Origin: Salinirubellus salinus | Lineage (GTDB): Archaea; Halobacteriota; Halobacteria; Halobacteriales; Haloarculaceae | Assembly (NCBI RefSeq): GCF_025231485.1 | Contig: NZ_CP104003.1 | Coordinates: forward strand, 558,001-622,000 | Direction: 5' to 3' | DNA: 64,000 nt | Shown: positions 7,498 to 36,609 of the stretch, piece by piece | Numbering within the stretch: the stretch's first letter is position 1 | Layout: every line of letters begins with the position of its first letter | The notes under the pieces: generated by a model | What the model was told of the DNA's origin: nothing | Database searches by the model: none | The model's input: only the letters and a program-made list of their open reading frames with translations | Position numbers and translations under genes: made by a program

Positions 7498-8237
7498 ACG
7501 CCTAGGTACCGCTGTCTCGTCTCCTCGTCTTCTCGCAGGTCCTCCGAGTGGCCCTCGTAGACGATGCTCCCCTGGTCGACGATGTAACACCGCTCGGCGA
7601 TCTTGATGGCCGCCGCGGCGTTCTGCTCGACGAGCAGGACCGTGGTGCCCTCCTCGCTGATGCGCCGGATGGCGTCCTCCACGTCCTCGATGATCTTCGG
7701 CGCGAGTCCCTCGTAGGGTTCGTCGAGCATCAGCAGTTTCGGGTTCTGTCGGAGCGCCCGTGCGATGGCGAGCATCTGCTGTTCACCACCCGAGAGCGTG
7801 CCTGCCATCTGGTTCTGCCGTTCGTCCAGCCGCGGGAACGCGTCGTACATCTCCTGCAGGGGACGAGCCTCGTTCACCTGTCCCAGCGCGCGGCCGACGA
7901 GGTTCGAACGGTTGCGCGACACCTCCGCGAGGTGGAGGTTCTCCTCCACGGTGAGGTTCGGGAAGATGCGCCGTTCCTCCGGGACGAGGCCGATGCCGGA
8001 CATCGAGACGTCCTCTGTCGGGCGGCCGGCGATGGTCTTACCCTCGAACCGTATCTCGCCGTCGCGGACGTCCGGCGGCGCCGCCCCCGCGATGGAGCGC
8101 AGCGTCGTGGTCTTGCCCGCGCCGTTCCGACCCAGCAGGGCGCAGACCTCGCCGTCGGCGATCTCCATCGAGAGGTCCCTGAGGATGTGACTCTGGCCGT
8201 AGTAGGCGTCGATGGAGTCGACCTCCAGCAGGCTCAC
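7494..8237 (-). CDS. livF: Branched-chain amino acid/amide ABC transporter ATPase LivF
   Basis: A 247-residue ABC ATPase. Walker [11 protein letters not shown]-loop region, signature LSGGEQQ, Walker B LLMLDEP with YEGLAP after it (a LivF hallmark), and the H-loop replaced by the family-typical VEQN segment. It energises import of branched-chain amino acids, amides or urea-like solutes with LivG. GTG start with a Shine-Dalgarno GGAGGTG (8245-8251) 7 nt upstream; the start overlaps the livG stop as GTGA. Last transporter gene of the operon. Confidence 0.94.
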
Positions 8238-9091
8238 AGTTCGACACCTCCGAGGTACGCCTCCTGGACGTCGGTGTTGTCCTGTACCTCCTCCGGGGTG
8301 CCGTCGGCGATGATGGCCCCGCGATTGAGGACGGCGATGCTGTCGGCGATGCGGAAGATGATCTCCATGTCGTGTTCGACGAGGACGATGGTCAGGCCGA
8401 GTTCCTCCTGCAGCCGCTCGACGAGGTCGACCGTCGACTGCGTCTCCTCGGGGCTCATCCCGGCGGTCGGCTCGTCCATGAACAGCAGGTCCGGCTCCGA
8501 GGCGAGGGCGATGGCGATCTCCAGCCGGCGCTTGTCGCCGTACGGGAGGCTGCCGGCCTCCACGTCGTCCGAGCCGTGTAGTTCGACGGCCTCCAGCATC
8601 TCCGTGGCCGTCTCGTCCACCTCCGTGAACGAGTCACGCTTCCGGAGGAAGTTGAGCTGGAACGAGCCGTGCTCGTTCGCCAGCGCCGCCATCTGGACGT
8701 TCTCGCGGGCGGTCATCCCTGGGAAGATGGAGGCGGTCTGGAACGACTTGCTGATGCCCTTCTGGACCACCTCGTGCGGCTCGGAGCCCGTGATGCCGTA
8801 CTCCTTGCGGAGTTGCTCGATGCGCTGTCGTTGCTGCTGGTCACGTTCGTCGTCGGGGACCTCGCGGATCTCGTGGAGGTCCGCGGCGTCCTCGTCGGAC
8901 AGGTCGTAGTAGACGTGCCCCTCGGTCGGTTCGAGGAGGCCGGTGACGAGGTTGATGGTCGTCGACTTGCCGGCGCCGTTCGGGCCGATGATGGCCTTCG
9001 TCTCGCCGCGTTCGACCGTCAGGTCGACGTCGTCGACGGCCGTCAGCCCGGAGAAGCGCTTCGTGAGCCCTTCCATCTCGAGGAGCCCCAT
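8234..9091 (-). CDS. livG: Branched-chain amino acid/amide ABC transporter ATPase LivG
   Basis: A 285-residue ABC ATPase starting MGLLEMEGLTKRFSG. Walker A GPNGAGKST, signature region LPYGDKRRLEIA (LivG-type), Walker B LLFMDEP and switch HDM are visible. An insertion of about 60 acidic residues after Walker A (around 65-105, with RDQQQRQRIEQLRKEYG) makes it longer than bacterial LivG. The ATG at 9091 overlaps the livM stop (TGATG) and has a strong Shine-Dalgarno (9097-9105). Partner of LivF. Confidence 0.94.
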   Translation of the reverse strand: MGLLEMEGLTKRFSGLTAVDDVDLTVERGETKAIIGPNGAGKSTTINLVTGLLEPTEGHVYYDLSDEDAADLHEIREVPDDERDQQQRQRIEQLRKEYGITGSEPHEVVQKGISKSFQTASIFPGMTARENVQMAALANEHGSFQLNFLRKRDSFTEVDETATEMLEAVELHGSDDVEAGSLPYGDKRRLEIAIALASEPDLLFMDEPTAGMSPEETQSTVDLVERLQEELGLTIVLVEHDMEIIFRIADSIAVLNRGAIIADGTPEEVQDNTDVQEAYLGGVEL

Positions 9092-10506
9092 CAGCTCCCA
9101 CCTCCGACACCGACGAGCGAGAGCATCCCACGGACCCGGCTCGTTACCCCACGACCGACACCGCGGAGCCATGTGGCGATGCCGCGCCCGACACCGCGGA
9201 GCCAGTCGGTGAACGCGCCCGGCGCCTCACTCGGGTTCCGGACCGCCCAGACGAGCGACTCCACCGCGCGAACCAGGAACTTCTTCAGGTCCACCAGTGC
9301 GCCGTAGGCACCGCGTGGGAACACCCACACGATGAAGACGAAGACGGCGCCCAGGATGAGCCGCCAGAGCGACCCGATCTCGCCGATCACGGGTATCGTC
9401 GCCCCCGAGATGACGTTCGCGATGTACTCGAAGATGAACGCCCCGAACACCGGGCCGATGAGCGACCCCGTACCGCCGAGGACGGTCATGATGACGAAGT
9501 CCCCCGACTGGATCCAGTAGAGTGCCGTCGCCGGGTGGATGAACGACTCGTGCATCACGAACAGCGCCCCGCCCATACCGGCGAACGCGCCACTGATGAT
9601 GAAGGCCATCAACTTGTAGCGGAACACGTTCAGGCCGACGAACTCGACGCGCTGCTCGTTCTCTCCGAGCGCCTCGAAGATGAGGCCGTACGGGGAGTTG
9701 ACGATGCGGTTCGCGACGGTCAGCGCGAGCAGGAACAGCACCGCGACGAACACGTACTCGATGGGGACGTAGTCGAGCGAGACGAGGAACGGAATCTCGA
9801 AGTTCCCGATCACGGGCAGGTAGAGCGCGCCGAACTGGGAGACCGGTTCGCCGAAGTCGACCATCCCGAGCAGGCTCCCGACGTTCACGTCGCTGAACCC
9901 GTTGTCACCGTTGGTGATGCCCGACCCCGGCCCGAGAGCGAAGAAGTAGAGCATCTGCCCGAACGTCAGGGTCAACACCGCGAAGTAGACGCCGGACCGC
10001 CGGATGGACATGAACCCGATGGGCCACGCCAGCAGCGTCGCCAGCGCCGTCCCGAACACCAGCATCGCGATGGGCGAGGTGATGCCGGGCATCGTCGCCG
10101 AGAAGCCGGCGAAGGATATCTCGGCCGTCGAGGAGAGCAGCGCGGCGCTGTAGGCGGCGGTGCCGAAGAACGCCGCGTGCCCGAACGAGAGCAACTCCGT
10201 GTACCCCAGCAGGAGGTTGAAGCCGATGACGATGATGCCGTAGATGAGCACGAGCGACGCGAGGCCCTCGTACCCGCCGATACCGGGGTCACCCAGCGAC
10301 TCGTTGAGCATCCCCATCCCCTCGATGAGGAGGTACGGGAAGACGACGAGGAACAGCGCACTCCCGATGACGACGGAGAACTCGTTCTCACGGAGCGAGC
10401 GGTAGGCCTCGCCGATGGGGCCGCCGATCGACCCCGAACCGGAGTCGGCGTCGTCGACGACCGTCCCGCCGTCCGTCTCCACCGGCGTGTCGCCGTCCCG
10501 GCTCAT
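9091..10506 (-). CDS. livM: Branched-chain amino acid/amide ABC transporter permease LivM
   Basis: A 471-residue permease. About 45 hydrophilic residues (MSRDGDTPVETDGGT...) precede about ten hydrophobic helices; the permease signature region includes LLGYTELLSFGHAAFFG and PYGLIFEALGENEQR, both typical of LivM. A C-terminal cytoplasmic tail of about 70 residues with repeated WLRGVGRG segments is unusual and basic. The start at 10506 overlaps the livH stop as ATGA and is preceded by a Shine-Dalgarno GGAGGTGGG within livH. Confidence 0.93.
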   Translation of the reverse strand: MSRDGDTPVETDGGTVVDDADSGSGSIGGPIGEAYRSLRENEFSVVIGSALFLVVFPYLLIEGMGMLNESLGDPGIGGYEGLASLVLIYGIIVIGFNLLLGYTELLSFGHAAFFGTAAYSAALLSSTAEISFAGFSATMPGITSPIAMLVFGTALATLLAWPIGFMSIRRSGVYFAVLTLTFGQMLYFFALGPGSGITNGDNGFSDVNVGSLLGMVDFGEPVSQFGALYLPVIGNFEIPFLVSLDYVPIEYVFVAVLFLLALTVANRIVNSPYGLIFEALGENEQRVEFVGLNVFRYKLMAFIISGAFAGMGGALFVMHESFIHPATALYWIQSGDFVIMTVLGGTGSLIGPVFGAFIFEYIANVISGATIPVIGEIGSLWRLILGAVFVFIVWVFPRGAYGALVDLKKFLVRAVESLVWAVRNPSEAPGAFTDWLRGVGRGIATWLRGVGRGVTSRVRGMLSLVGVGGGS

Positions 10507-23630: not shown

Positions 23631-25001
23631 CTAGTACTTGGGCTCCGCGCCCAGCGTGCCGTACACCTCGTCCATCAGCGTGTCACGCTGCGCGCGCCAC
23701 GTGTCGAACCCGGCTGGCGTGGACGGGTACGTCTCGTAGTGTGCGAGCAGTTCGTCGGCCTTCTGCTTGGCCTTGTAGAGGTCGAACATCGTCCCCCAGT
23801 GGCCGCGGGACTTCCAGAGCGTCTTGAGCGCGAGCAGCGGGCCAATACCCGTCGACCCGGAGTAGAGCGCCTCGGAGAGCTGCTCGCCGGGGAGTGCCGC
23901 GAGCATGCTCATCAAGTCGTCGAGGTCGTACGCCGTCGAGAAGATGTTGTAGACGTCGAGGGCGGCGTACCGCCCGCCGAAGTGCTCCATCACGCGCTCG
24001 TTGTAGTTCCAGAGGCGGTCCTCCGAGTAGTCCTCCTCGGCGAGCGCCTCGAGGACCTGCTCGGCCGCGTAGGTCGCGGAGTACGCGGCGCCGGCGATGC
24101 CCCCGCCCGTGGTGGGGTTGACGTGGGCGGCGGCGTCACCGGCGGCGATGAACCCGGGCGCCGTGGCCGAGTCGTACGGGCGGCGGGTCGGGAGCGACGC
24201 GCCCAGTTTGTCCTTCACCGTGGCATTCTTGAACTCGGGCCGCTGGCGGACGTCGCGCTTGAGCGCCTCGACGAGCTTCATCGGCTCCTCGTTCATCTGG
24301 AAGCCGAGGCCGACGTTGATCTCCGTGGGCGTGCGCGGGAAGTACCAGAGGTAGCCCGCCGCACGCTCGGTCGGCTTGAACACGAGCGCGTCGTGGTAGT
24401 CGACCGGCTCGTCCACCGTGAGGACCTCGCGGTACGCGGAGGAGAACTGCGAGAACCGGACGTTGGTGTCGAACGTGGCGTGCGAGAGGTCGACCTTGTC
24501 CTGCAGGAGTGAGAGCGCACCGGTCCCGTCGATGACGAAGTCGGTCTCGTAGGTGACCGGGTCGCCCTTCTGCATGGCCTTCAGCCCGGTCACGCGGCCG
24601 TCGTCGTCCTGCACGACGTCGTTGACGACGGTATCGTAGTGGAACTCGGCGCCCCTCTTCTTCGCGCCCTCGATGATGAGTCGGCCGTACTTGTAGCGGT
24701 CGATGACGCCGAGTTCGCCCGGTACGGGGATGTCGAGGACGGCGTCCTCGGAGGGGATCTCGAAGCGGCCGTGGTCGACCACCGAGTTCGTGATGGCCGG
24801 CTCCAGTTGCGACTTCGGGATGGTTTCGGGGAAGTTATCCGCCCCCTTCAGGGCGTCACCGCAGGCGATGTGGCCCGCCTCGTCCTCGTCCTTCCGTTCG
24901 ACGACGACGACGTCTACCCCCTCGTCGGCCAGTTTCGCGCTGGCGTAACAGCCGACCGTCCCGGCGCCCACGACGGCGACGTCGGGCGTGTAGGTGGTCA
25001 T
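23631..25001 (-). CDS. Geranylgeranyl reductase family flavoprotein
   Basis: A 456-residue FAD-dependent reductase. Rossmann motif VVGAGTVGCYASAKLADEG at the N-terminus, the family core YLWYFPRT (substrate loop, similar to the YxWxFPxx signature) and the second FAD motif FIAAGDAAAHVNPTTGGGI are visible. Members saturate the isoprenoid chains of archaeal ether lipids or reduce geranylgeranyl groups of quinones and chlorophyll. It is divergent from a ferredoxin gene 105 bp away, a plausible electron donor. A CTATAAAG TATA box (about 25032-25040) lies upstream. A second, more distant homologue is at 48221. Confidence 0.9.
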   Translation of the reverse strand: MTTYTPDVAVVGAGTVGCYASAKLADEGVDVVVVERKDEDEAGHIACGDALKGADNFPETIPKSQLEPAITNSVVDHGRFEIPSEDAVLDIPVPGELGVIDRYKYGRLIIEGAKKRGAEFHYDTVVNDVVQDDDGRVTGLKAMQKGDPVTYETDFVIDGTGALSLLQDKVDLSHATFDTNVRFSQFSSAYREVLTVDEPVDYHDALVFKPTERAAGYLWYFPRTPTEINVGLGFQMNEEPMKLVEALKRDVRQRPEFKNATVKDKLGASLPTRRPYDSATAPGFIAAGDAAAHVNPTTGGGIAGAAYSATYAAEQVLEALAEEDYSEDRLWNYNERVMEHFGGRYAALDVYNIFSTAYDLDDLMSMLAALPGEQLSEALYSGSTGIGPLLALKTLWKSRGHWGTMFDLYKAKQKADELLAHYETYPSTPAGFDTWRAQRDTLMDEVYGTLGAEPKY

Positions 25002-25106
25002 TGGTCACTCTCGTGACCCGACCGGCAAAACTCTTTATAGCCGAGTAGCCGCCGGGTGGCGACGGACTCTGACAAGAGTTTTGTGCGGGTTCGACCAAGC
25101 GCGAAC

Positions 25107-25448
25107 ATGACCGACTACGAGGTGGAGTTCGTCGGGACGGGCGAGACAATCACCGTCTCCGACAAGCAGACCATCCTCAGCCGCTGCATCGAGGAGGGCA
25201 TCGCGCAGGAGTACTCCTGCCGGGTGGGGATGTGTCTGGCGTGCTCGGCGGAGATCGTCGAGGGCGAGGTCGAACAGGCGGTCGCCGTCGCGCGCGGACT
25301 GACCGAGGAGGAGGCCGAGCGCTACGCGCTGACGTGCATGGCACGACCCGCCTCGGATCTGAAACTGGACCGGGGGAAGTATCCGCCGAGCATCGAGGAC
25401 GACGCGGCAGACGGCCCCGAGGCCGGTGCGGCGTTCGACGACGACTGA
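25107..25448 (+). CDS. Plant-type [2Fe-2S] ferredoxin
   Basis: A 113-residue ferredoxin. Cluster ligands are Cys38, Cys43, Cys46 and Cys77 in the pattern C-x4-C-x2-C-x30-C, matching the plant/haloarchaeal type, but without the long acidic insertion of the classical halobacterial ferredoxin. An acidic tail (about 95-113) follows. ATG at 25107 with a TATA-like gagttttgtg (25076-25085) about 27 nt upstream, leaderless. Divergent to a geranylgeranyl reductase gene, suggesting it supplies electrons to that enzyme; this is inference. Confidence 0.92.
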   Translation: MTDYEVEFVGTGETITVSDKQTILSRCIEEGIAQEYSCRVGMCLACSAEIVEGEVEQAVAVARGLTEEEAERYALTCMARPASDLKLDRGKYPPSIEDDAADGPEAGAAFDDD

Positions 25449-25466
25449 ATCGGAGCCGCGTCTCCT

Positions 25467-25970
25467 CTACGTCGTGCTGGACGACGGACAGTCGACTTCG
25501 ACGCCAGAGACCTCCTCGCTCGTCTCGATAGAGACGCCCTCGCCGCTCCCCACGATGTCGAAGGTCACGGTGGTCGTCCCGTCGCTCTGCACGTCGTTCG
25601 AGCCCGAACAGTAGAGGCCGACGGACTCCGTCGACCCAGTCCCGAGGCTCGTCGGATGCGTGACGGAGAGGTCACTCCTATCGACGTTCGTGTCGCCGAC
25701 GCTGTCGATGGTGACCCCCAGCGTGTCGAGCGGACTCTCGAACGTGTTCGTGAGCTTCAGCACGGTCACGGCGTCGTCCTCGGTCGCCCCGTTCGCTACC
25801 GTGCCCGTCCCCACGTCGTCGATAGAGAGCAGCGCGCTGTCGTCGCTGGCGGTCCCGATGTCGACGGCCCTGTCGGCGGCCAGCGAGGTCACCCCGTAGG
25901 TCGCAGAAGCCAGGAGCAGTACACCGACGGCTGCGAGCACCAGGCCCGCACGGCGTTGGAGGTCCTTCAT
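25467..25970 (-). CDS. Secreted DUF1102/camelysin-like protein
   Basis: A 167-residue exported protein with an N-terminal hydrophobic helix (about 8-30) and the segment YGVTSLAADRAVDIGTASD followed by ALLSID. The GVTS/GAFTS plus ALLSI signature recurs in the proteins at 26807 and 29069, indicating a shared beta-sandwich domain. The C-terminal part has several beta strands and ends in a Cys/Ser/Thr-rich tail (CPSSSTT); a second Cys is at SVGLYCSGS, possibly a disulfide. It lies 28 bp after the regulator gene at 25999 on the same strand. Probable small surface or fibre subunit; no enzymatic motif. Confidence 0.75.
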   Translation of the reverse strand: MKDLQRRAGLVLAAVGVLLLASATYGVTSLAADRAVDIGTASDDSALLSIDDVGTGTVANGATEDDAVTVLKLTNTFESPLDTLGVTIDSVGDTNVDRSDLSVTHPTSLGTGSTESVGLYCSGSNDVQSDGTTTVTFDIVGSGEGVSIETSEEVSGVEVDCPSSSTT

Positions 25971-25998
25971 CGGATGGTGGAGGTAGCTGTCGACCGCA

Positions 25999-26538
25999 TC
26001 ACTCTTCGAGTTCCGGCGGCAGCGCGTCGGTTCCGAGACGACGCTCTCGGTCGGTCAGGAGGTGGGCGAGGGCCGAGAACGCGAACGCGAGGACGACGAT
26101 GGCCGCCCACCCGAGGCCGGAGACGAGGCCCTCGGTCGCCCCCGTCAGCCAGACGCCCGCGAGGAGCGCGCTCGAGACGGCGGTCAGCCCGAGGTAGTAC
26201 TCGCTCCACGGGATGTCGTCACCGTCGACCACGTCGACGTACACCTCGAGTTCGTCCGCGCGCTCGCCGAGTTCCACGACGCCGTCCTCGAACTGGACGA
26301 CGTCCGCGTCGTCGAGCTTCGGGAGGTGCGTCTGCTGGAGCGACGTGTACACGCGCTTTCGCTCGGCTGACGTGATCTCGGCCACCGACTTGCCGTTCTC
26401 CCACGCGGCCACCTGCTCGGCCAGGTCGCCGAGCGGGACCGCATCCTCCACCCGCTTGCAGTGATGCCACGTGTACCGCCGTCTGTGGTTGCTCAACAAC
26501 TCGAACGTCCGACTCGGATCCGACTGACTCGTTCCCAC
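25999..26538 (-). CDS. DUF7344-type wHTH protein with two membrane helices
   Basis: A 179-residue protein. The N-terminal half (about 10-105: RTFELLSNHRRRY, LGDLAEQVAAWENGK, ERKRVYTSLQQTHLPKLDD) is a winged-helix-like domain found in many haloarchaeal putative regulators (DUF7344). Two hydrophobic helices at about 115-135 and 140-162 anchor it to the membrane. GTG start with a TATA box about 30 nt upstream (leaderless). It is divergent from the beta-helix surface protein and probably co-transcribed with the secreted protein at 25467, so it may be a membrane-bound regulator of this surface gene cluster. Confidence 0.8.
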   Translation of the reverse strand: MGTSQSDPSRTFELLSNHRRRYTWHHCKRVEDAVPLGDLAEQVAAWENGKSVAEITSAERKRVYTSLQQTHLPKLDDADVVQFEDGVVELGERADELEVYVDVVDGDDIPWSEYYLGLTAVSSALLAGVWLTGATEGLVSGLGWAAIVVLAFAFSALAHLLTDRERRLGTDALPPELEE

Positions 26539-26563
26539 TGACTGAATCCCCCTACTGAGTCAC

Positions 26564-26573
26564 ATGATAATTC
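26564..26573 (-). promoter_or_regulatory. TATA box of the DUF7344 gene
   Basis: Minus-strand GAATTATCAT is centred about 30 nt before the GTG at 26538. Confidence 0.5.
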
Positions 26574-26806
26574 AGGCGTTGAAGAGTGTTACGCATACGA
26601 CAAGAGGGGGGATTTCAATGGCCTCTCATCGCCGGTTGAACCACCGGTTAAACGGCGACCCAGGCACCTTCAGGCGGTGCCATCCGTTCTTCTGTCGCCC
26701 CAATACAAAGTCCGTATAGTGGGATGGTCGCACCAAGTGTCCACCGGAACCACGGCCGACCGACCGGGCAGTCGGGCGGGGTGTGGCGGGGCACGTTCAA
26801 CCAACC
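26574..26806. other. Divergent intergenic region with GGTT repeats
   Basis: The gap between the regulator and the beta-helix protein is richer in A+T than its surroundings. It contains two near-copies of ccggttgaa/ccggttaaa (about 26633-26657) around a short inverted repeat (aacc-acc-ggtt) and a TATA-like ccgtatagtg near 26712. No RNA gene or open frame of note is seen. It probably holds the control sites for both divergent units. Confidence 0.35.
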
Positions 26807-29059
26807 ATGAAATTCAACCGACGCAACGTGCTGATCGGTCTCGGTAGTATCGCGGCGGGCGCCGGCACCCTCGCGGGGACGGGCGCGTTCACGAGTGTGA
26901 CGGCGACGCGTGACGCGGTCGTCAACGTGGCTGGCGACGCGGGCGCGCTGCTCTCCATTCAGGCTGCGGACAGCCCGAACGGGGACGCGTACGTCTCGAC
27001 CAACTCCAACGGCGAGGTCGGCCTTGACCTCTCGACGGACAGCGGGTCCGGCGTGAACCCCAATGCCGTCACGCAGATTGACGAGGTCCTGCGCGTGATG
27101 AACCAGGGAACCCAGCCCGTCGGGTTCTACGTGGAGGACACGGACGGTAATGGTTCGAACTCCGACGTGGTCACGTTTGAGGCGAATGGAGACTCTGTCG
27201 AGGGGAGCGGCAACGCCGTCGTGCTTGAGGTTGGTGAGTCGCTCGTCCTCGATATCGAGGTCGATACCGAAGGGGAGCCAGACCTGAGTGACACGCAGAT
27301 TCTGTCAACCGTGACGTTCTATGCGGACTATGCGCAGTCGCAGACTGCACCCGGTCAGGACGGCGTGCTTTACGTCTCCAAGACAGCTGACGACGCCGAC
27401 TTCCGCTCGATTGCGGCTGCGGCGAACGCAGTCTCCACGGGTGAGACTATTCTGGTCGACGACCAGACCTTCGAAGAGAACGTTCTGGTAGATGTGGACC
27501 GCGTCGCCTTCCGCCCGGCTTCTGATAGTGCCTCGCCGACGCTCGTCGGCGGTATTGCCTTCGGACCAAATACGCGGGGACACACGGTGACCGGCTTCAC
27601 GTTTGATATCACCGACCCCTCGACCGGCGTAGACGAACCGAGCTCCCTCGGCGGAGCGTCTGCATTCCGACCTAACGGTGCCGCTATCAACATCGGTCAT
27701 GCGAGCGACGTGATTGTCACGGCAAACACCGTACTCGGGGCTGGGAAATCGAACACCGATGGTTCGACGGCCATCTCGTTCGACGACACTACGTCGAGCT
27801 TCGACCTCGGTGTGGGCGCTACTGTCGCTAACAACGAGTTCGTCGACCTTTACAGCGGCTCCTGGGCAGGTGGTGACCAGATTACCTTCGAAGGGAACAC
27901 GTTCCGCAACTGCGGTGCCGCCATCGGCGGCACGGAAGGGGGTTCAGTCGAGGTCGTTCGCAATATCTTTGACGCGTGTGGTCTCGAAGGTGTGTTCGGA
28001 GCCGTTGACGCTGGCGGCGCAGCCGGTTCGATGACTGTCAGCCAGAACGACTTCCTCTCCAACTGCAAAAACGCGGTCAATAACTACAGTGGCGACGTAC
28101 TCGATGCCCGCAACAACTTCTACGGGGATGCCAGCGGTCCGGATAGTGACCCGGTAATCACTGATGCTGACTCCTCAGTCAAGGCTAATGGTGACGGCGT
28201 GAGCATCGGTGATGTTGCCGCTGGCCCGATTAATTTCGCACCCTTCCGGAATGAGCGTGTGTTCCCAGCAACTGTTCGTGTCGGATCATCCTCAGAGGCA
28301 GACTATGCCTCGATAGGGGAAGCGCTCGACAACGTGCTAGCAGGTGCGACAATCTTGGTTGAGGATGGCACGTATTCTTACTCTACCAACGTTACGGTCG
28401 GCGTGTACGGCGTGACAATCAAAGCGGCATCTGGAGCATCTCCGACGCTTGATCTGACCGCAGGCAGTACCTTTGAGCTGATGGAGGCAGTAACCGTCAG
28501 TGGATTCACGGTGGAAGGTACCCGTAGTGGTCAGGGCTTTGATGGAAGTTCTGGTAACCTTGCCTTCTCGATCCAGGGTGACGACGTGACCGTTGAAGAC
28601 AACTCCATTAGCGGATTCTACGGAGGAGTTCAATCCCTATCGAACACGGTCCGTGCGACCGTGAAGGCCAACACGATCGACAACACCGGATTCGCCATCG
28701 CTGTGCAGGGAGACTCTTCATACTCGAATAGCAATTTCAGCGGTGATACCATCGTCGGGAATACAGTGACGGCTGCTGAGCTCCAAGGCATCGCCGCTAC
28801 GTATACCGGTGAGACAGAGATTCGGAACAACGATGTTGAAATTGACTCTACTGGACTTTCGGACGCCCAGTCATTCGACAACAACCGTGGAATAGAGATA
28901 TCAGGTGCCGATGTCGTGGTGACCGGTAACGTCGTAGACAGCATTCAGTCACGTGATGCTGACTTCTTCCTGGCCGGGGACGCAACGAACAGGGTCTCTG
29001 ATTTGAAAGCCGACAACACGATCGAGGACAGCACCGCCAATATTGTTGACAATCGCTAA
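26807..29059 (+). CDS. Surface protein: DUF1102-like domain plus duplicated right-handed beta-helix
   Basis: A 750-residue exported protein. It starts MKFNRRNVLIGLGS with a Tat-like signal ending in GTGAFTSVTA; the GAFTS plus ALLSIQ signature marks a DUF1102/camelysin-like domain (about 20-175). Two parallel beta-helix modules follow (about 185-480 and 489-745). Each opens with a similar block (VLYVSKTADDADFRSI versus VRVGSSSEADYASI, then ETILVDD versus ATILVED) and continues with N-rich coils such as ANNEFVD, ARNNFYG and ANTIDN. Codon use in the beta-helix part is clearly richer in A/T than in the N-terminal part or neighbours. The ATG at 26807 is used because the signal motif begins there. 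Followed after 9 bp by a related secreted protein gene. Confidence 0.85.
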   Translation: MKFNRRNVLIGLGSIAAGAGTLAGTGAFTSVTATRDAVVNVAGDAGALLSIQAADSPNGDAYVSTNSNGEVGLDLSTDSGSGVNPNAVTQIDEVLRVMNQGTQPVGFYVEDTDGNGSNSDVVTFEANGDSVEGSGNAVVLEVGESLVLDIEVDTEGEPDLSDTQILSTVTFYADYAQSQTAPGQDGVLYVSKTADDADFRSIAAAANAVSTGETILVDDQTFEENVLVDVDRVAFRPASDSASPTLVGGIAFGPNTRGHTVTGFTFDITDPSTGVDEPSSLGGASAFRPNGAAINIGHASDVIVTANTVLGAGKSNTDGSTAISFDDTTSSFDLGVGATVANNEFVDLYSGSWAGGDQITFEGNTFRNCGAAIGGTEGGSVEVVRNIFDACGLEGVFGAVDAGGAAGSMTVSQNDFLSNCKNAVNNYSGDVLDARNNFYGDASGPDSDPVITDADSSVKANGDGVSIGDVAAGPINFAPFRNERVFPATVRVGSSSEADYASIGEALDNVLAGATILVEDGTYSYSTNVTVGVYGVTIKAASGASPTLDLTAGSTFELMEAVTVSGFTVEGTRSGQGFDGSSGNLAFSIQGDDVTVEDNSISGFYGGVQSLSNTVRATVKANTIDNTGFAIAVQGDSSYSNSNFSGDTIVGNTVTAAELQGIAATYTGETEIRNNDVEIDSTGLSDAQSFDNNRGIEISGADVVVTGNVVDSIQSRDADFFLAGDATNRVSDLKADNTIEDSTANIVDNR

Positions 29060-29068
29060 GATTCGGTA

Positions 29069-30094
29069 ATGCAAACCCGAACGCTCCACGTCGCCGCCTT
29101 GGTCGCCCTCGTCCTAGCCGCGGCCATCGGCACCGGAGCGTTCACCCCGGACCCCGTCGCGGACGGCGTCACCGTCGAGCCCGCGCCGGGGCCAAACGGG
29201 GAGTACGCGAGCATCTCGGAGTCGGGCGAGCTCCGCATCGCCATCACGGACCAGGGGGTCAGCCCGGACGCCACGACCTACATAGACGACGTGTTCGTGG
29301 TCACGAACGGTCGCGAAACGACCACTCGGTTCCACGTCGAGGACGGCGCCGAGGAGGTGCGGTTCTACGACTCGGCCGACCGCGAGTTCGTCTCGAGTGC
29401 GGAGGACCGCGCCACGCTCGGCCCGGGCGAAGAGCTCTCTGTCGGGATGGTCGTCGACGCCACCGACGTCGCCAGCGAGACCATCGTCCTCGAGCAGATC
29501 ACCATCGTCTCGGGCATCCAGACACCGGCCCCGACCGAGCCGTCCGGACCGCCACCGACGGAGGTGCCACCGACCGCCCCGCCGACTCAAGGGGGCAACG
29601 GCGGTGGCGGTGGCGGTGGCGGCGGTGGCGGCGGTGGCGGCGGTGGCGGTGGAGGCGGTGGTGGCCTCCCGCCCGCGCCGCCCGTGGTGACGACGCCGAC
29701 GGCGACGCCGGTGCCCACACCGTCGACGACACCGACGGTGACTCCGAGCGCGACGCCGACGGCCACGCCCACCACGACGGTCCCGCCGACGGACCCGGTG
29801 ACGGCCACACCCACGCCCTCGCCGACGCCGACCCCGACGGCCACGCCGACGCCGACCCCGACGGCCACGCCGGAGGTCGCGACGGCGACGCCGGACGAGC
29901 GGACCCCGACCGGCACCGTCGAGCCGCCGACGGCGACGCCCGACGACGGACCCGGCGGGCCGCCGGACGACCGCACGCCGCAGGGGCCGCCGACGGCGTT
30001 CGGCTTCCCGCTGGAGCTCGTGGCGGCCACCGGCGGGGCGGTGGTGCTCGGCGGTGGTGCGGTGTACCTCTACCGTGCGGGCTACCTCGGCTGA
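29069..30094 (+). CDS. Secreted DUF1102-like protein with poly-Gly/Pro-Thr stalk and C-terminal anchor
   Basis: A 341-residue protein. An N-terminal signal helix ends in IGTGAFTPDPVADG, matching the GAFT signature of the neighbouring protein; TTYIDDVFVVTN in the domain (about 25-155) also matches TQIDEVLRVMN there. An uninterrupted glycine run of over 20 residues (about 178-200) is followed by a Thr/Pro repeat region (about 205-300, ATPTPTPTA-like), then a C-terminal hydrophobic helix (about 310-333, VVLGGGAVYLY) that would anchor it. The design is globular head, glycosylatable stalk, membrane anchor. It begins 9 bp after the beta-helix gene and is probably co-transcribed. Confidence 0.85.
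   Translation: MQTRTLHVAALVALVLAAAIGTGAFTPDPVADGVTVEPAPGPNGEYASISESGELRIAITDQGVSPDATTYIDDVFVVTNGRETTTRFHVEDGAEEVRFYDSADREFVSSAEDRATLGPGEELSVGMVVDATDVASETIVLEQITIVSGIQTPAPTEPSGPPPTEVPPTAPPTQGGNGGGGGGGGGGGGGGGGGGGGGGLPPAPPVVTTPTATPVPTPSTTPTVTPSATPTATPTTTVPPTDPVTATPTPSPTPTPTATPTPTPTATPEVATATPDERTPTGTVEPPTATPDDGPGGPPDDRTPQGPPTAFGFPLELVAATGGAVVLGGGAVYLYRAGYLG
29588..29960. repeat. GGN and ACSCCG low-complexity tracts inside the stalk protein gene
   Basis: About 29597-29664 is a near-perfect GGC/GGT/GGA trinucleotide array; about 29690-29950 is built from repeats such as acgccgacg and ccgacggccacg encoding Pro-Thr/Ala. Such arrays are prone to slippage and vary in length between strains. Confidence 0.7.
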
Positions 30095-30278
30095 CTCGGG
30101 GGGCTGACCCCTCCGGGTCGTCGAGTCGCGTGCCGGCACCCGAGGCACGGCGTCGCCCGCGAGAGTGCTGGAGGTCGATACCTGCCCACGACAGTCTGAC
30201 GAGGGCCGGCGCAGCCCGGTTCTCGCCACTGAGAATCGGCGCGGTACCGTTTTCGCCGGGGTCTCCGAACGCCGGGAC

Positions 30279-31103
30279 ATGGCGACGTCTTCCGAGCGAC
30301 CGAACCGATTCGGGACGGGGGACTCGGTGCCGGTCGGTCCGCTCGCCACCGTTGCCGTCCCGCTCGCGTTGCTCTGGGTCCACTCGCTGCCGGTCGGAAC
30401 GCGCCAGTCGCTGGCGCTCGCGTTCGGCGACCCCACGCTCTCGACACTGTTCACGGCACACTTCGTCCACCTCTCGGCCGGGCACCTGCTCTCCAACCTG
30501 ATAATCTACGGGCTGGTCGTCCCGATGGCGTACCTGCTGGCCCGTCGGACGGACGACCTGCGGGCGTTCCGCCGGGGGTTCCTCACCGTCCTCCTCGTCT
30601 TCCCGCCGGCGCTCTCGGGCCTGAGCGTCGCGCTCGGGCGTCCGGCGCTCGGCTACGGGTTCTCCGGGCTGAACATGGCGCTGTTCGGACTTCTGACGAT
30701 GTTCCTCGGCCGGTTCCTCGCGCGACGACTCGGCGTGGGCGTCGACCGGCGGGGCCTCGTCCTGTTCGGTGCCGGTATCGTCCTCGTGGTGCTCCAGTCG
30801 CTGCCGACGACGGCCGTCTCGCTCTCGGTCGCGGGCGCGGCGGCCTGTCTCTCCCTGGCGTCCGTCGTGAGTCGGCACCGCCGTCGCTCCGCCGAGGGGC
30901 CGACGCTCGGGTCCCGGTCGGGTCGGGGCGGCGACGCAGAACTGGCGGCCGTCGCGGGGGTGCTGTTCTGTGTCCTGCCGGTCGTGGCGTTCTCCCAGCC
31001 CACGAGCGTGAGCGCAGGTCTGGGGCTGTACGTCCACTTCCTCGGGTACGCGCTCGCGTTCACGGTGCTCTACGCCGCGGACGCCGCGGGACTCCTCGCG
31101 TAA
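30279..31103 (+). CDS. Rhomboid-type intramembrane serine protease
   Basis: A 274-residue membrane protein with about seven helices. Rhomboid signatures are complete: H64-x4-H69-x3-N73 (HLSAGHLLSN), the catalytic serine motif GFSG (Ser129) in GYGFSGLNMALFG, and a late-helix histidine followed by xxG (His253, VHFLG). Rhomboids cut single-span membrane proteins within the bilayer. ATG at 30279 with TATA-like accgttttcg (about 30246-30255) 28 nt upstream. Its place between an anchored surface protein and a signal peptidase suggests processing or release of the surface proteins; this is inferred. A loop insertion of about 20 basic residues (about 198-220) is unusual. Confidence 0.8.
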   Translation: MATSSERPNRFGTGDSVPVGPLATVAVPLALLWVHSLPVGTRQSLALAFGDPTLSTLFTAHFVHLSAGHLLSNLIIYGLVVPMAYLLARRTDDLRAFRRGFLTVLLVFPPALSGLSVALGRPALGYGFSGLNMALFGLLTMFLGRFLARRLGVGVDRRGLVLFGAGIVLVVLQSLPTTAVSLSVAGAAACLSLASVVSRHRRRSAEGPTLGSRSGRGGDAELAAVAGVLFCVLPVVAFSQPTSVSAGLGLYVHFLGYALAFTVLYAADAAGLLA

Positions 31104-31155
31104 CGTCACCTACTTGTCCATCCGCACGAACGTTCGCCCGTTCAGGTGGGACGAC

Positions 31156-32301
31156 GTGAGTGAGCGCTGGTCCGTGGGGGGTCTCGTACAGTCGGCAGCC
31201 GTGCTCGTCGTCCTCGTCGTCGTGGCCGGCAGTCTGCTCGGCCAGCCGTTGCTCCTCAGTTACGTCGAGACGGGGAGCATGGCGCCGACGATGGAACCGG
31301 GCGACGGGTTCGTCGCACTCCCGCCGGCGCTGGCCGGCGACGTCGGACCGGACGACGTGGTGGTCTACGAGGCCAAGCAGTTGAACGGCGGCGGCCTCAC
31401 CACGCACCGCGTCGTCGAGGAGACGACCAATGGCTACGTCACCCGGGGCGACGCGAACCCGTTCACCGACCAGGACGGGAGCGAACCGCCCGTCACCGAC
31501 GGCCAGATACGTGCCGTCGCGCTGCAGGTCGGCGGGAGCGTCGTGACCGTCCCTGCGCTGGGGACGCTCGCGACAGGTCTCCAGGGCGCGTTCGGCGGCC
31601 TCCAGCGCACGCTCTCGGGACTCGTCGGCACGGACGTCCCGACCACTGCCGTCGGGCTGTTGCTCCTCGGCGGTGGCGTCGCGCTCTACGGACTCGACGA
31701 CGGGACGGGCCGCGAGCGCCCGACCCGCGATCGCGGAGCCGGCGGCACGGACGCGCGGGTCCTCGTCCTCGTCCTGACGCTCGTCGTCGTCGTCCCGCTC
31801 ACGGGGTCGATGGTACTCCCCGGTGGCCCACAGGACCTCGGCATCGTCAGCGCGGAGAGCGACTCGCCTGCCGGCCACGTCGTCGAGGCGGGGACGACCG
31901 AGGAGCGGACCTACCAACTGTCGAACGCGGGGCTGCTCCCGACCGTCGTCTACCTCGAACCGGCCAGCGAGGGGCTGGTGGTGTCGCCGGAACGGACCGT
32001 CCTCGACGGGGCCGCCGAGCGGGACGCCACGCTCGCCGTCTCGGCACCGCCGGAGACGGGCTACTACGTCCGCAGTCTCGTCGAGCACCGGTACGTCGCC
32101 GTCCTGCCACTCGCTGTCCTCGATTCCCTCTACCGCGTCCACCCGTGGGCCCCCATCGTCGCCATCGATGCCGTCGTCGGTGGCGGTTTCTACCTGCTCG
32201 GGACGGTCCTCGTCGGCGGGGGCTCGGTCCGCCTCCGCCGTCGCTCGCGCGGCGCCGCTCGTGATTCGTGGCTTGGGACTGTCCGGAGGCGGTTGGGATG
32301 A
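31156..32301 (+). CDS. Archaeal signal peptidase I (S26B) with C-terminal membrane/beta domain
   Basis: A 381-residue membrane protease that removes signal peptides. One N-terminal helix (about 10-30) leads to the catalytic motif ETGSMAPTMEPGD (Ser41). His84 in LTTHRVVEE replaces the bacterial lysine, and an aspartate follows in RGDANPFTD, giving the archaeal/ER-type Ser-His-Asp set. About 230 further residues hold helices at about 140-160, 205-225 and near 340 and a beta-rich external domain. The GTG at 31156 has an AGGTGG Shine-Dalgarno 6 nt upstream; a TTG at 31114 in frame is a weaker alternative. The stop overlaps the DUF5305 start (ATGA). Similar peptidases (SipW-type) are dedicated to fibre subunits. 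Confidence 0.88.
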   Translation: MSERWSVGGLVQSAAVLVVLVVVAGSLLGQPLLLSYVETGSMAPTMEPGDGFVALPPALAGDVGPDDVVVYEAKQLNGGGLTTHRVVEETTNGYVTRGDANPFTDQDGSEPPVTDGQIRAVALQVGGSVVTVPALGTLATGLQGAFGGLQRTLSGLVGTDVPTTAVGLLLLGGGVALYGLDDGTGRERPTRDRGAGGTDARVLVLVLTLVVVVPLTGSMVLPGGPQDLGIVSAESDSPAGHVVEAGTTEERTYQLSNAGLLPTVVYLEPASEGLVVSPERTVLDGAAERDATLAVSAPPETGYYVRSLVEHRYVAVLPLAVLDSLYRVHPWAPIVAIDAVVGGGFYLLGTVLVGGGSVRLRRRSRGAARDSWLGTVRRRLG

Positions 32302-33449
32302 GCGGGCGTGAGAGCGTCCGCCTGCGACGGGCCGTCGGTGACCGCTTCGGCGCGCTCGTGGGACTCCTGCTCGTCCTCGCACTCGTCGGCGGTGCGTTCA
32401 CCTACACGACCCACGTCGAACCCGGGACGCACGTCGAGGAACGGACCGTCTCCTCGTGGGAGTCCACCGCCGGTTACGCCCACTCCGCGACGGTCACCAG
32501 CGAGAACGGCGTGTTCGGCGTGGGGCGGACCCTCTCGGACCGGGCGCTCTACTTCGACGCCATCACGCCGACGCTCGACGGAGAACTCCGGTACGGCTAC
32601 GAGGCCACCGGCGAGGGCGAACTCACCGTCCGTTCCTCGAGCACCCTCGTCGTCCGGGCGGTCGGCGAGCGCGACGACCGGGAGGTGGTCTACTGGCGCG
32701 TGAGCGAGCCGCTCGGTCGCCCGTCGTCGTCGACCATCGCCCCGGGCGAGACATTCACCGCCCCGTTCGGCACGAACGTGAGCGCGCTCAAGGAGCGAGT
32801 CGCCCGTATCGAGACGGAGCTCGGAGGCTCGCCCGGCACGCCGGAGGCCAGTGTCCTGACCCGTGTCCGGGTCAGCGGGACGGTCAACGGCGAACAGGTG
32901 AGTCGCTCGCGCGAGTTCACGATGACGCTCACCCTCGACGAGGGGGGGACCTACCGGGTACTCGGTGACGAGGAGATCACGCGCACCACCAACAGCACGG
33001 AGCGCGTCGTGGTCCGAGACGAGTACGGGCCTCTCCGCCGCGCGGGGGCACCGGCGCTGCTCGCACTCTCTCTGCTCGGGCTGGTCGGCCTCGTCGCGGC
33101 GCGCTCCACTGATCGGCTCGAGGTCACCGAGGCCGAACGCTCGCGTTCGGCGTTCGAGCGCGCTCGCGAGGAGTTCGACGAGTGGATCACTCCGGCAGAC
33201 GTCGACCCCCCGACGGACCCCGTCCGGGTCCACACACTCGAGGGACTCGTCGACCTCGCCATCGACACGGGCGAGCGCGTCCTCGAGGCTCCCGAGCGTG
33301 AACGGTACTACGTGTTCGGCCAACAGGACTACGTCTACGAGGCGCCCGCACCGTTCGCCGACGGCGAACCGGGGGCCGCCGAGTCGACCACCGACACCGA
33401 CGACGAGGGGGACGGAGGCGACGATACCCCTGTCGAGGACGCGTCCTGA
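32298..33449 (+). CDS. DUF5305 family membrane protein
   Basis: A 383-residue protein with an N-terminal helix (about 20-40), a large external beta-rich domain (about 42-240; YTTHVEPGTH, ATVTSENGVFG, SVLTRVRVSG), a second helix (about 245-267) and a cytoplasmic C-terminal domain ending in an acidic Asp/Glu/Thr tail. I recognise the arrangement as DUF5305, commonly next to archaeal signal peptidase genes. ATG at 32298 overlaps the peptidase stop and has GGAGG 8 nt upstream, so the two are translationally coupled. Possibly an assembly or anchoring factor for the surface proteins encoded upstream. Confidence 0.82.
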   Translation: MSGRESVRLRRAVGDRFGALVGLLLVLALVGGAFTYTTHVEPGTHVEERTVSSWESTAGYAHSATVTSENGVFGVGRTLSDRALYFDAITPTLDGELRYGYEATGEGELTVRSSSTLVVRAVGERDDREVVYWRVSEPLGRPSSSTIAPGETFTAPFGTNVSALKERVARIETELGGSPGTPEASVLTRVRVSGTVNGEQVSRSREFTMTLTLDEGGTYRVLGDEEITRTTNSTERVVVRDEYGPLRRAGAPALLALSLLGLVGLVAARSTDRLEVTEAERSRSAFERAREEFDEWITPADVDPPTDPVRVHTLEGLVDLAIDTGERVLEAPERERYYVFGQQDYVYEAPAPFADGEPGAAESTTDTDDEGDGGDDTPVEDAS

Positions 33450-33473
33450 CCGCGACGTTCCTCGTGCACCGAC

Positions 33474-34925
33474 CTACGATTCGACCCGTGGGTACGCCCC
33501 TGCCCACGGGTTCTCCCGCTCGAACAGCGCCGCGACGTCGAGCAGGCGCGACTCCGAGTAGCGTGGCCCGACCAGCTGCATCCCCACGGGCAGCCCGTCG
33601 ACCAGTCCGGCCGGCACGTTGACGACGGGGTGGCCGGTCATGTTGAACACCCACGAGAGCATCCAGTCCATCGGGAGGCCGGAGACGTTCTGGCCGTCTA
33701 TCTCGGTCGGGAACGGTTCGTCGTGCGAGAGCGTCGGCGTGGCGAGCGTGGGACAGACGAGCGCGTCGTACCCCGAGAGCGCCGACTCGACGGCGTCGTA
33801 CAGCGCCGTGCGGACCTCGTCAGTCTCGCGGTACGTCGTCGCGTCGTAGCCACGACCCATGGCGAGCGTCTGGACGAAGGTGTCCGAGACGTCGTCGGCG
33901 TCGTCGCCCGTGAAGTCGAGGCCGTGTTCGTGCTGGACGGCGTCCGCGACGACGGCGAAGTGGACGGTGGCGGCGACGCCGTAGGCGTAGGTCAGGTCGC
34001 CACGGTCCGGCCCGTCGAGTTCGGCGGGGTCGACCGTCGCACCCGCGTCCTCGACGGTGCCGAGCGCGTCCGCGACGACCTCGCGGACGGCCTCGTCGAC
34101 GGCGAACGTCTCCAGCGTCGGCGAGTGGGCCAGTCGGAGTCCCTCGGGGTCGGCCGGCGAGACGTCGTCGTAGCGGTCGGGCTTCGGGACGCTGAACGGG
34201 TCGCGGTCGTCACGGCCAGCCATCACCTCGAGCAGGAGACCGAGGTCCTCGACCCAGCGGGCCATCGGGCCCAGCACGCCGAACGGGGTGTGGGAGCCGA
34301 ACGCATTGGGTCGCGCCTCGCGCGGGATCAGCCCGTGGGTGGGCTTGACCGAGGCGACCCCGCAACACGAGGCCGGCGTCCGCAACGACCCGCCGACGTC
34401 CGACCCCGTGGCGAGAGGGACGAGGCCCTCTCCGAGCGCGGCCGCCGACCCGCCCGAGGAGCCCCCCGCGTTGCGCTCGGGGTCGAACGGCGTGCCGGTC
34501 GGCCCCTGCAGTTCGTTGTACGTCCGCGGGGTGTGTCCGAGTTCGGGCGTGTTCGTCGTCCCGACGACGATGGCGCCGGCGTCCTCGAGTCGCTGCACGG
34601 CGACGCTCGTCTCCGCGGCGACGTTGTCCTCGAGGGCGGCGATGCCGGCCGTGTTGGGGACGCCCGCCTTCGTGTACGAGAGGTCCTTGATGGCGACCGG
34701 GACCCCGTGGAGCGCCCCGAGGTCCTCGCCCGCGTCGACGGCGCGCTCGGCGGCGGCGGCCCGCTCACGCGCCGCCTCGTGCAGCACGTTCACGAACGCG
34801 TTGGTACGGTCGTTCAGTGCCTCGATGCGGTCGAGGCTGGCCTCGACGAGGTCGACCGGCGACACGTCGCCGGCCCGTACCGCGGTCGCGAGGTCCGTCG
34901 CACTCCGGTGGAGGTCGATGGGCAT
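33474..34925 (-). CDS. Amidase (amidase signature family)
   Basis: A 483-residue hydrolase of the amidase signature family. The Ser-cisSer-Lys catalytic triad is visible: Lys in VPVAIKDL, the Gly/Ser-rich signature NAGGSSGGSAAALG, and the nucleophile in GSDVGGSLRTPA. The family includes GatA and general amide hydrolases. GatA is unlikely, because no gatB/gatC lies nearby and the C-terminus (GMQLVGPRYSESRLL) matches stand-alone amidases. Cytoplasmic; substrate unknown. Convergent with the DUF5305 gene. Confidence 0.93.
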   Translation of the reverse strand: MPIDLHRSATDLATAVRAGDVSPVDLVEASLDRIEALNDRTNAFVNVLHEAARERAAAAERAVDAGEDLGALHGVPVAIKDLSYTKAGVPNTAGIAALEDNVAAETSVAVQRLEDAGAIVVGTTNTPELGHTPRTYNELQGPTGTPFDPERNAGGSSGGSAAALGEGLVPLATGSDVGGSLRTPASCCGVASVKPTHGLIPREARPNAFGSHTPFGVLGPMARWVEDLGLLLEVMAGRDDRDPFSVPKPDRYDDVSPADPEGLRLAHSPTLETFAVDEAVREVVADALGTVEDAGATVDPAELDGPDRGDLTYAYGVAATVHFAVVADAVQHEHGLDFTGDDADDVSDTFVQTLAMGRGYDATTYRETDEVRTALYDAVESALSGYDALVCPTLATPTLSHDEPFPTEIDGQNVSGLPMDWMLSWVFNMTGHPVVNVPAGLVDGLPVGMQLVGPRYSESRLLDVAALFERENPWAGAYPRVES

Positions 34926-34995: not shown

Positions 34996-36351
34996 TCAGC
35001 GCGTCGAGAACGCGTCCGGTGGCCCGCAGGCCGGCGCGTCGGACCAGTGGGCCTTCATCGCCGAGCGGGTGTTGTAGACCGTCGAGCCACAGCCCGGACA
35101 GGGGACGCGCCAGCCGCGCTTGGGGTACGAGAGCCACGGGTAGGACCCGTCTCCCGAGGCGACGGGGACGCCGTTGACGGCGGTCACCGACTCGGAGGCG
35201 AGGGCGGCCCAGAGTGGGTGGTCAGAGCGGTCCTCGCGCCGGTGCTCGGGTGCCTCGGCGATGGCGCGCTCGGTCCGCTGGACGACGATGGCCCAGTCGT
35301 CGGCCGAACAGGTCGCCCGGTCGGGCACCGTCTCACTCGGGCCGTCACACCGGTCGGCGTCGCGCCAGTGGTCGCGGAACGACTCGAACGTGTTCGTCAC
35401 CGAGCGCCCGCAGGCCGGGCAGGGGGCGGTCCACTCCGCCCGGTCGCCGTCGAACAGCGGGAAGGCGACGGGACTCTGCTCGCGCCCACCGCCGGAGACG
35501 TGTTCGGACTCGAGCAGCGCGGCGAGCTGGCTCCGGAACGCGGCCACCGAGTCGTAGCGGTCGACGGGACGCTTCGCGAGCGCCGGTCCCAGCAGTTCGT
35601 CCACGCTGTCCGGCAGCGACGGCCTGACCGTGCTCGGGGGGATCGGTCTGGACTCGACCACGTCGCGTCGGGCGGTCGGGCCCTCGAACGGTGCCTCGCC
35701 GGTCAGGAGTTCGTAGAGCGTCACGCCGAGCCCGTGGACGTCGACGAGCGGTCCCGCCGGGTCGTATCGCTCCGGCGCGACCTGTTCGGGGGCGCGGTAC
35801 GGCGTCGCCGTGCCGTCGGCCGCGAGCGGCCCCGCGATACCGAGGCCGCCCAGCCGCGGGAACCCCCACTCGGCGGTCGGCTGGTGGTGGACCCACGCGG
35901 GTGAGAGCGCGCCGTGGACCGTGCCGTGCTCGTGGGCGTACACCAGCGCGTCGGCGAGACAGACCCCGACCCAGAGCGCCTCGGCGAGGGGCAGTGCCTC
36001 ACGGTCGGCGTAGGACCCGCCGGCGGGGGTGGCGACCCACGGCCGTGGCTGTTTCCCAGACGCCACGATGGGGAGGACGTGGTCGTGGTCGTCGACCGCG
36101 CGCCAGCGGTCCACGGCGGCGACGAACTCGCGGGCCGGGACGGTGCTGCGGCGGTCGAGTTCCGCGAGGCGGACGGGGACGCCTTCGAGCGTCACTGCCG
36201 TGGCCGTGAGCCGGCCGGGCCAGGGCGCTGCGGCCGATTCGTCGGCCTCGTCCGCGCGCTCGAAGTCGGTATACGCCGCCCGCTGTGTGGGGACCGTCGG
36301 GCAGACTTCCGGACCCGGCGCGGCGGCGATGTCCATCGGACCACCTGTCAT
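34996..36351 (-). CDS. Pseudokinase with two C-terminal C2HC zinc-knuckle motifs
   Basis: A 451-residue protein. Residues about 28-285 follow a Ser/Thr protein kinase fold: AHEHGTVHG before the catalytic-loop position, PYRAPEQ (APE motif), DVHGLGVTLYELLTGEAPF. The catalytic residues are missing: the VAIK lysine position reads VRLAEL (Arg61), HRD reads HGA (146-148) and DFG reads GLG (169-171). Two similar modules follow: CPAC...H...C (Cys311, Cys314, His328, Cys335) and CPGC...H...C (Cys418, Cys421, His435, Cys442), probably zinc-binding. It is unlikely to phosphorylate; a scaffolding or nucleic-acid/protein binding role is possible. Start could also be the ATG at 36336. Confidence 0.8.
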   Translation of the reverse strand: MTGGPMDIAAAPGPEVCPTVPTQRAAYTDFERADEADESAAAPWPGRLTATAVTLEGVPVRLAELDRRSTVPAREFVAAVDRWRAVDDHDHVLPIVASGKQPRPWVATPAGGSYADREALPLAEALWVGVCLADALVYAHEHGTVHGALSPAWVHHQPTAEWGFPRLGGLGIAGPLAADGTATPYRAPEQVAPERYDPAGPLVDVHGLGVTLYELLTGEAPFEGPTARRDVVESRPIPPSTVRPSLPDSVDELLGPALAKRPVDRYDSVAAFRSQLAALLESEHVSGGGREQSPVAFPLFDGDRAEWTAPCPACGRSVTNTFESFRDHWRDADRCDGPSETVPDRATCSADDWAIVVQRTERAIAEAPEHRREDRSDHPLWAALASESVTAVNGVPVASGDGSYPWLSYPKRGWRVPCPGCGSTVYNTRSAMKAHWSDAPACGPPDAFSTR

Positions 36352-36499
36352 CACCTCGCTCTTGGGCGCGATACGGTTTAGCCTCTCGGAGTGGCGTGGA
36401 CGAGGGACCAGCGTCGAGAGACACGGTGCGGTCGCGGTGCGGTCACTCCCGGAACGCTCACCCGGCCCGAGCAGAGCGGGACCTTCGGTCCCGCCGGCA

Positions 36500-36609
36500 G
36501 ACGGCGGCTGCGCCGCCGTCGACGAAGCGAGGGCCGCCGTTTGAATCGAACGTCTTCGAGGTAGCGTGGTGGCGGAGCCACCACGTACCATGCGAGCGGC
36601 TTGCGCCGC
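36500..36609. terminator. Three tandem hairpins downstream of the thioredoxin reductase-like gene
   Basis: Hairpins: 36500-36520 (9-bp stem, gacggcggc, 3-nt loop), 36565-36585 (9-bp stem cgtggtggc, loop gga) and 36596-36609 (5-bp stem gcggc). They lie 32-140 bp after the stop of the gene ending at 36641, on its transcription side, and upstream of the pseudokinase. Terminator or processed 3' end is most likely. Confidence 0.4.

Follow-up and report, generated by a model that had tools for sequence, protein, structure and literature searches.

Tafi, the Tat (twin-arginine) dependent fimbriae of haloarchaea (Galeva et al. 2025, iScience 28:111793, as cited in PMC12687288), are the closest described relatives of a compact gene block of about 8 kb in the haloarchaeon Salinirubellus salinus. 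The block lies in a stretch of 64,000 nucleotides, here called the window (C1:558001-622000 of the 4.38-Mb genome). Literature searches for TafA and TafE yielded nothing beyond a citation of the 2025 tafi paper. AbpA pili and Sulfolobus threads (Saci_0406) are like the window locus in having a predicted donor-strand beta fold, but unlike the tafi pilus they were not found by a sequence-profile search of the PDB; the Sulfolobus thread is exported by Sec rather than Tat (PMC9715654). In bacterial TasA/SipW systems, as at the locus, a signal peptidase with a Ser-His pair is linked to the subunits of a donor-strand fibre. An A/F-type cleavage context is also common to the two. We know of no TafF-like anchor or rhomboid for AbpA pili or Sulfolobus threads.

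The cluster is a divergent relative of tafi and not an undescribed system. It probably encodes a tafi-like donor-strand fibre or adhesin with TafF as anchor and a rhomboid that would cut the TafF tail. An earlier reading made from the letters alone (the sequence-only reading) had noticed that three secreted proteins, encoded at 25467, 26807 and 29069, share an N-terminal pattern, and profile comparison with hhalign places this far beyond chance: E=2.4e-27 for the TafE-class versus the TafF-class profile and E=3.7e-21 for TafE-class versus TafC-class. The solved archaeal pilin 9p0a is matched by all three class profiles (E=1.6e-36, 8.8e-7 and 5.2e-11). Against NCBIfam, the 25467 protein matches TafC (E=6.6e-15, 55 bits, cut-off 410), the 26807 protein matches TafE over residues 4-172 (E=9.7e-26, 91 bits, cut-off 155) and the 29069 protein matches TafF (E=2.4e-18, 66.5 bits, cut-off 420); the first 43 residues of the TafA model are also matched in the 26807 protein (40 bits, cut-off 190). 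TafC-, TafE- and TafF-class genes, a signal peptidase and DUF7344 are all present together, as in tafi.

The sequence-only reading had proposed a fibre system of the camelysin/TasA type. Its kinship with an archaeal donor-strand system stands, in the form of tafi. Membership in the camelysin/TasA family does not: the three proteins have no such Pfam or NCBIfam match, and TasA is absent from the 50 best structural matches. A DUF1102 label was likewise dropped, with 15.2 bits for the 29069 protein against a Pfam cut-off of 22.2 and no match for the other two. Two variants and a rhomboid had been thought foreign to described versions. The 'stalk' protein at 29069 is related to the TafF family, which is already known, and hence not new; what remains beyond tafi, as far as the citing paper and the NCBIfam models portray it, is the beta-helix fusion and the link to the rhomboid. 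Plasmids searched by tblastn with the TafF protein gave no match.

Layout and conservation of the cluster

The features are as follows; reading frames were called mechanically, so that start positions may be wrong.

25467..25970, minus strand: TafC-like secreted protein, 167 amino acids (aa); a signal helix and a donor-strand segment are followed by a small domain and no other
25999..26538, minus strand: winged-helix protein of the DUF7344 family, with hydrophobic segments at its C-terminus (PF24035, 101.6 bits, cut-off 27.8)
26807..29059, plus strand: fibre subunit of the TafE class that continues into a beta-helix, 750 aa (NCBIfam TafE, Pfam NosD, 9p0a by phmmer)
26807..26887, plus strand: twin-arginine signal peptide MKFNRRNVLIGLG...GTGA, read from the sequence, with probable cleavage at A27/F28
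26888..26935, plus strand: predicted donor strand FTSVTATRDAVVNVAG, residues 28-43; unstructured in the monomer model, a conserved segment in alignment A2
27404..29056, plus strand: right-handed beta-helix region, adhesin-like (Pfam NosD; a recurring fusion in other loci)
29069..30094, plus strand: anchor subunit of the TafF type, 341 aa; the N-domain lacks a donor segment and is followed by a stalk of Gly and Pro/Thr and a hydrophobic C-terminal tail
29996..30091, plus strand: C-terminal tail AFGFPLELVAATGGAVVLGGGAVYLYRAGYLG of TafF, candidate rhomboid target (alignment A7: invariant G and R flank the hydrophobic segment)
30279..31103 (alternative start 30165), plus strand: intramembrane serine protease of the rhomboid type, in a subfamily linked to taf (conserved GxSG serine; TafF linkage)
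31114..32301, plus strand: signal peptidase I, endoplasmic reticulum (ER) type (Ser-His), with a long C-terminal extension (TIGR02228, SipW model, Ser/His motifs)
32298..33449, plus strand: membrane protein of the DUF5305 family; two helices with external beta domains between them, then a conserved tail (PF17231, 179 bits, cut-off 29)

The sequence-only reading had the signal peptidase, DUF5305, rhomboid and DUF7344 genes in one 8-kb block, and all are in place. The genes form two divergent groups, the TafC-like and DUF7344 genes on the minus strand and the rest, from the TafE-beta-helix gene to DUF5305, on the plus strand. There the TafE-beta-helix and TafF-like genes are 9 bp apart and the rhomboid and signal peptidase genes about 10 bp apart, while the signal peptidase stop overlaps the likely DUF5305 start (ATG 32298) as ATGA. 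These short gaps and the overlap suggest one transcript for the plus-strand genes. From the end of TafF to the rhomboid ATG at 30279 there are 184 bp, if that start is used. The flanks are a ferredoxin gene (25056-25448) on one side and an amidase gene (33474-34925) on the other.

Do these genes belong together? The sequence-only reading had staked its grouping on their co-occurrence in other genomes, and they are found together in many haloarchaeal genera. A search covered 99 related genomes, relatives that are not independent samples, and a scan seeded with DUF5305 gave 59 long named loci (at least 17 kb), so that the counts from these are shares of DUF5305 loci and not of genomes. Signal peptidase is present in 58 of the 59, DUF7344 in 54, TafE in 52, TafC in 50, TafF in 39 and rhomboid in 35; the cluster is also conserved in 40 further loci. 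A TafE-class match occurs in 65 of the 99 genomes and a DUF5305 match in 64. The window's own genome carries three more, smaller taf-like clusters, L066, L067 and L068 (C1 near 1.635, 1.299 and 3.143 Mb), without TafF, rhomboid or beta-helix.

Compared with tafi (TafA/C/E/F; 9P0A), the locus is alike in its subunit families, the Tat signal of TafE, the fold, the linked signal peptidase and DUF7344, and the layout; it differs in proteins that score under the cut-offs, the lack of a separate small TafA, the TafE-beta-helix fusion, a short TafC without Laminin_G_3 (LamG) and a rhomboid in the operon. The TafC of full tafi loci (L072, L084) does carry Laminin_G_3.

The TafE-class subunit and its beta-helix

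The 26807 protein begins with the twin-arginine motif RRNVL, and an RR motif is present in 93 of 103 TafE homologues. The protein matches 9p0a directly (phmmer, E=9.9e-16). An AlphaFold model of residues 1-199 has a mean predicted local distance difference test (pLDDT) score of 75 (over 90 for much of the core). The monomer shows no secondary structure in residues 1-43, the place expected for the donor strand, and a beta-sandwich-like domain follows from residue 49 onward. The sequence-only reading had asked for comparison with folds of the AbpA/TasA type, and the N-domain does resemble donor-strand pili. Foldseek ranks first the tafi pilus of Natrinema sp. J7-2 (9P0A, E=6.2e-7, template modelling (TM) score 0.52), second the Sulfolobus thread (7PNB, E=1.5e-3) and third the Pyrobaculum bundling pilus AbpA (7UEG, E=1.6e-3). 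Ranks 2 and 3 are weak by E-value, but that all three are archaeal donor-strand filaments is telling.

About 550 residues follow the complete TafE domain, and these match a NosD-type beta-helix (Pfam, 25.4 bits, cut-off 23.6). The fusion recurs in L069, where it stands twice in tandem (624 and 684 aa), and in L090, L128, L135 and L154. In other loci Laminin_G_3 stands in the place of the beta-helix, on TafE (L091, L141) or on TafC (L072, L084). The two domains may therefore be read as exchangeable binding parts.

The 750-aa fusion is the window's only gene of the TafE/TafA class, and no separate small fimbrin (TafA) is encoded there, which counts against a fibre. The locus may therefore make a short adhesin and not a long filament: one TafE-beta-helix donor strand inserted into TafF would give a stalk with a tip. 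L090 (810 aa) and L154 (905 aa) likewise pair a long TafE with TafF and have no small fimbrin. However, L069, the closest relative locus, has a small TafE next to its two fusions, the 193-218 aa TafE proteins of the three other clusters in the genome could supply a fimbrin, and the TafC donor segment is kept in 57 of 96 cases (counted by regular expression). The short form is thus conceivable, though somewhat doubtful.

The TafF tail and the linked rhomboid

TafF differs from the other two classes at both ends. A C-terminal hydrophobic segment is found in 57 of 66 TafF proteins, compared with 2 of 187 for TafE and 0 of 96 for TafC. The donor segment is present in 6 of 66 TafF versus 127 of 187 TafE proteins, counts that depend on the regular expression used, a dependence that weakens the contrast; in the hhalign alignment of the TafE and TafF profiles the gap coincides with this segment. 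The window TafF has Gly and Pro/Thr repeats that form a stalk. A protein that accepts a strand, cannot donate one and is fixed in the membrane would form the base of the structure, and this is the position suggested for TafF.

How might such an anchor be processed? The neighbouring rhomboid scores 13.3 bits with the Pfam rhomboid model, under the cut-off of 22.6, with its catalytic residues conserved. In alignment A4 (n=22) the catalytic Ser is invariant, its GxSG neighbours are conserved and the His is nearly invariant; it is missing in two rhomboids, L114 and L154, both of which look frame-broken or masked. Among the 59 long loci, rhomboid occurs in 35 of 39 with TafF and in 0 of 20 without it (Fisher p=3.8e-12, a figure inflated by related genomes and by DUF5305-based sampling). 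Of 56 rhomboid-TafF pairs, 48 are direct neighbours that share a strand. Because of the inflated Fisher figure, the 99 genomes were searched directly for the rhomboid. The high-scoring subfamily has 28 members above 200 bits, with the next group at 112, and 24 of the 28 have a TafF-class match no more than about 7 kb away. The other four are L194, in a taf locus; L195, on a 3.5-kb contig; L192; and L193. At L192 the rhomboid (8710-9603) adjoins a secreted 421-aa stalk protein rich in Pro/Thr and Gly (7438-8703), which has no TafF domain and belongs to no known family, and which ends in ELAGG, a transmembrane segment and ARRVT. This case points to the tail, and not the fibre domain, as the rhomboid's partner.

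L193 is of a different kind. When L193:7300-11509 (G028) is compared with window positions 23631-34925, the rhomboid stands alone between the ferredoxin gene (83% identity) and the amidase gene (61%); as the same flanking genes hold only the rhomboid, a taf cluster seems to have been lost from the site and the protease left behind. A rhomboid that stays at a syntenic site without TafF might also be a bystander, or a general quality protease for membrane proteins, kept by vertical inheritance of the operon. The cluster adjoins ferredoxin/geranylgeranyl-reductase-like genes in several genera, so that neighbours may persist by descent, and many of the sampled loci are from Halorubrum, so that the counts are not independent. 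Yet the rhomboid tracks TafF over at least a dozen genera, also in rearranged loci, and at L192 it sits beside a stalk protein that is not a Taf protein. A bystander role can be entertained, but with some reserve.

That the rhomboid processes TafF, the fibre's anchor, is accordingly put forward as a proposal drawn from gene neighbourhoods and motifs. A more specific form, advanced tentatively, is that the enzymes of this subfamily are dedicated to processing, and possibly sorting, the TafF tail. They would be an archaeal functional counterpart of rhombosortase and archaeosortase, derived from another rhomboid branch and reusable for other stalk proteins. Rhombosortase, which acts with GlyGly-CTERM, has His at the position four after the catalytic Ser (Haft and Varghese 2011, PMC3237569). 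The window family is like it in that a rhomboid lies beside a single protein with a tail of motif, transmembrane segment and basic residues and keeps the serine protease motif, although the window's own tail is weak. Membership in rhombosortase itself was rejected (24.4 bits against the TIGR03902 cut-off of 84; the Ser+4 residue is Met in most of 59 homologues and His in 0).

TafF might instead be anchored by archaeosortase A (ArtA), like the S-layer glycoprotein, with the rhomboid acting elsewhere. The window's genome has two tandem ArtA genes (G000:C1:407899-409778; 318 and 296 bits). The PGF-CTERM model is over its cut-off in the TafF of L090, a locus without rhomboid (25.5 versus 24.5 bits), and is matched weakly by 6 of 24 TafF tails. 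At E 0.01, however, it matched 0 of 8 sampled TafF tails from rhomboid-containing loci, and it has no match in the window tail; anchoring by this route is regarded as unlikely. It is as if TafF could use either the archaeosortase or the rhomboid route, on the hint of L090, a single case.

Several observations weigh against the reading of a tafi-like structure with a rhomboid-processed anchor. Every Taf match lies under its curated NCBIfam cut-off, and the signal peptides of TafC and TafF are not clear Tat signals. The tail of the window TafF has low hydrophobicity and a single basic residue, and carries no NCBIfam sorting signal. The converse of the rhomboid linkage is weaker, as some TafF loci and many TafF-profile matches are without such a rhomboid. 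The fibre is known here from genes and models, with no filament seen.

Proposed assembly and processing, and their significance

With these points weighed, a tafi-like fibre or adhesin with a TafF anchor is still the reading preferred. The homology, the fold class, the conserved cluster, the contrasts in tail and donor segment and the rhomboid linkage come from computation, whereas polymerisation, subunit order, TafF cleavage and the roles of DUF7344 and DUF5305 are inferred. Assembly can be pictured as follows. The TafE-beta-helix protein would be exported via the Tat pathway, and the ER-type signal peptidase of the cluster would cleave it at GTGA/F; the strand freed at the N-terminus would then fill the groove of the subunit that follows. 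TafF would take a strand and have none to give, its stalk and C-terminal tail holding the structure at the membrane, with the beta-helix facing outward as the binding part. Cleavage of the TafF tail by the rhomboid would release the structure or move it to another anchor.

The signal peptidase scores 45.2 bits with TIGR02228, just under the cut-off of 51.85, and E=6.9e-5 with the SipW model. Its motifs are well kept in homologues (HR[VI] in 115 of 115, GSMxP in 96 of 115), and the catalytic Ser and His are present in the window protein. The DUF5305 protein gives a confident AlphaFold model (pLDDT 91), in which beta domains lie between two membrane helices, and its tail has an invariant LVDxAID motif. 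Its comparison with the PDB gave no convincing relative (best E 6e-4, TM 0.18), and because these matches are weak no function is read from the fold; next to the signal peptidase, the protein probably assists maturation or assembly. The DUF7344 protein, a candidate membrane regulator, probably regulates the cluster.

Elsewhere in the window, the protein encoded at 34996-36591 on the minus strand combines a partial Ser/Thr kinase domain with CPxCG regions that resemble zinc ribbons.

Tafi are recent, and to our knowledge little is understood of their anchoring or their tip. The locus offers testable candidates for both: TafF as a strand-accepting base, beta-helix and LamG domains as exchangeable binding parts, and a rhomboid with a named candidate substrate. 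If it is true that the rhomboid cuts TafF, this would be a second archaeal way, besides archaeosortase, to release or anchor surface proteins.

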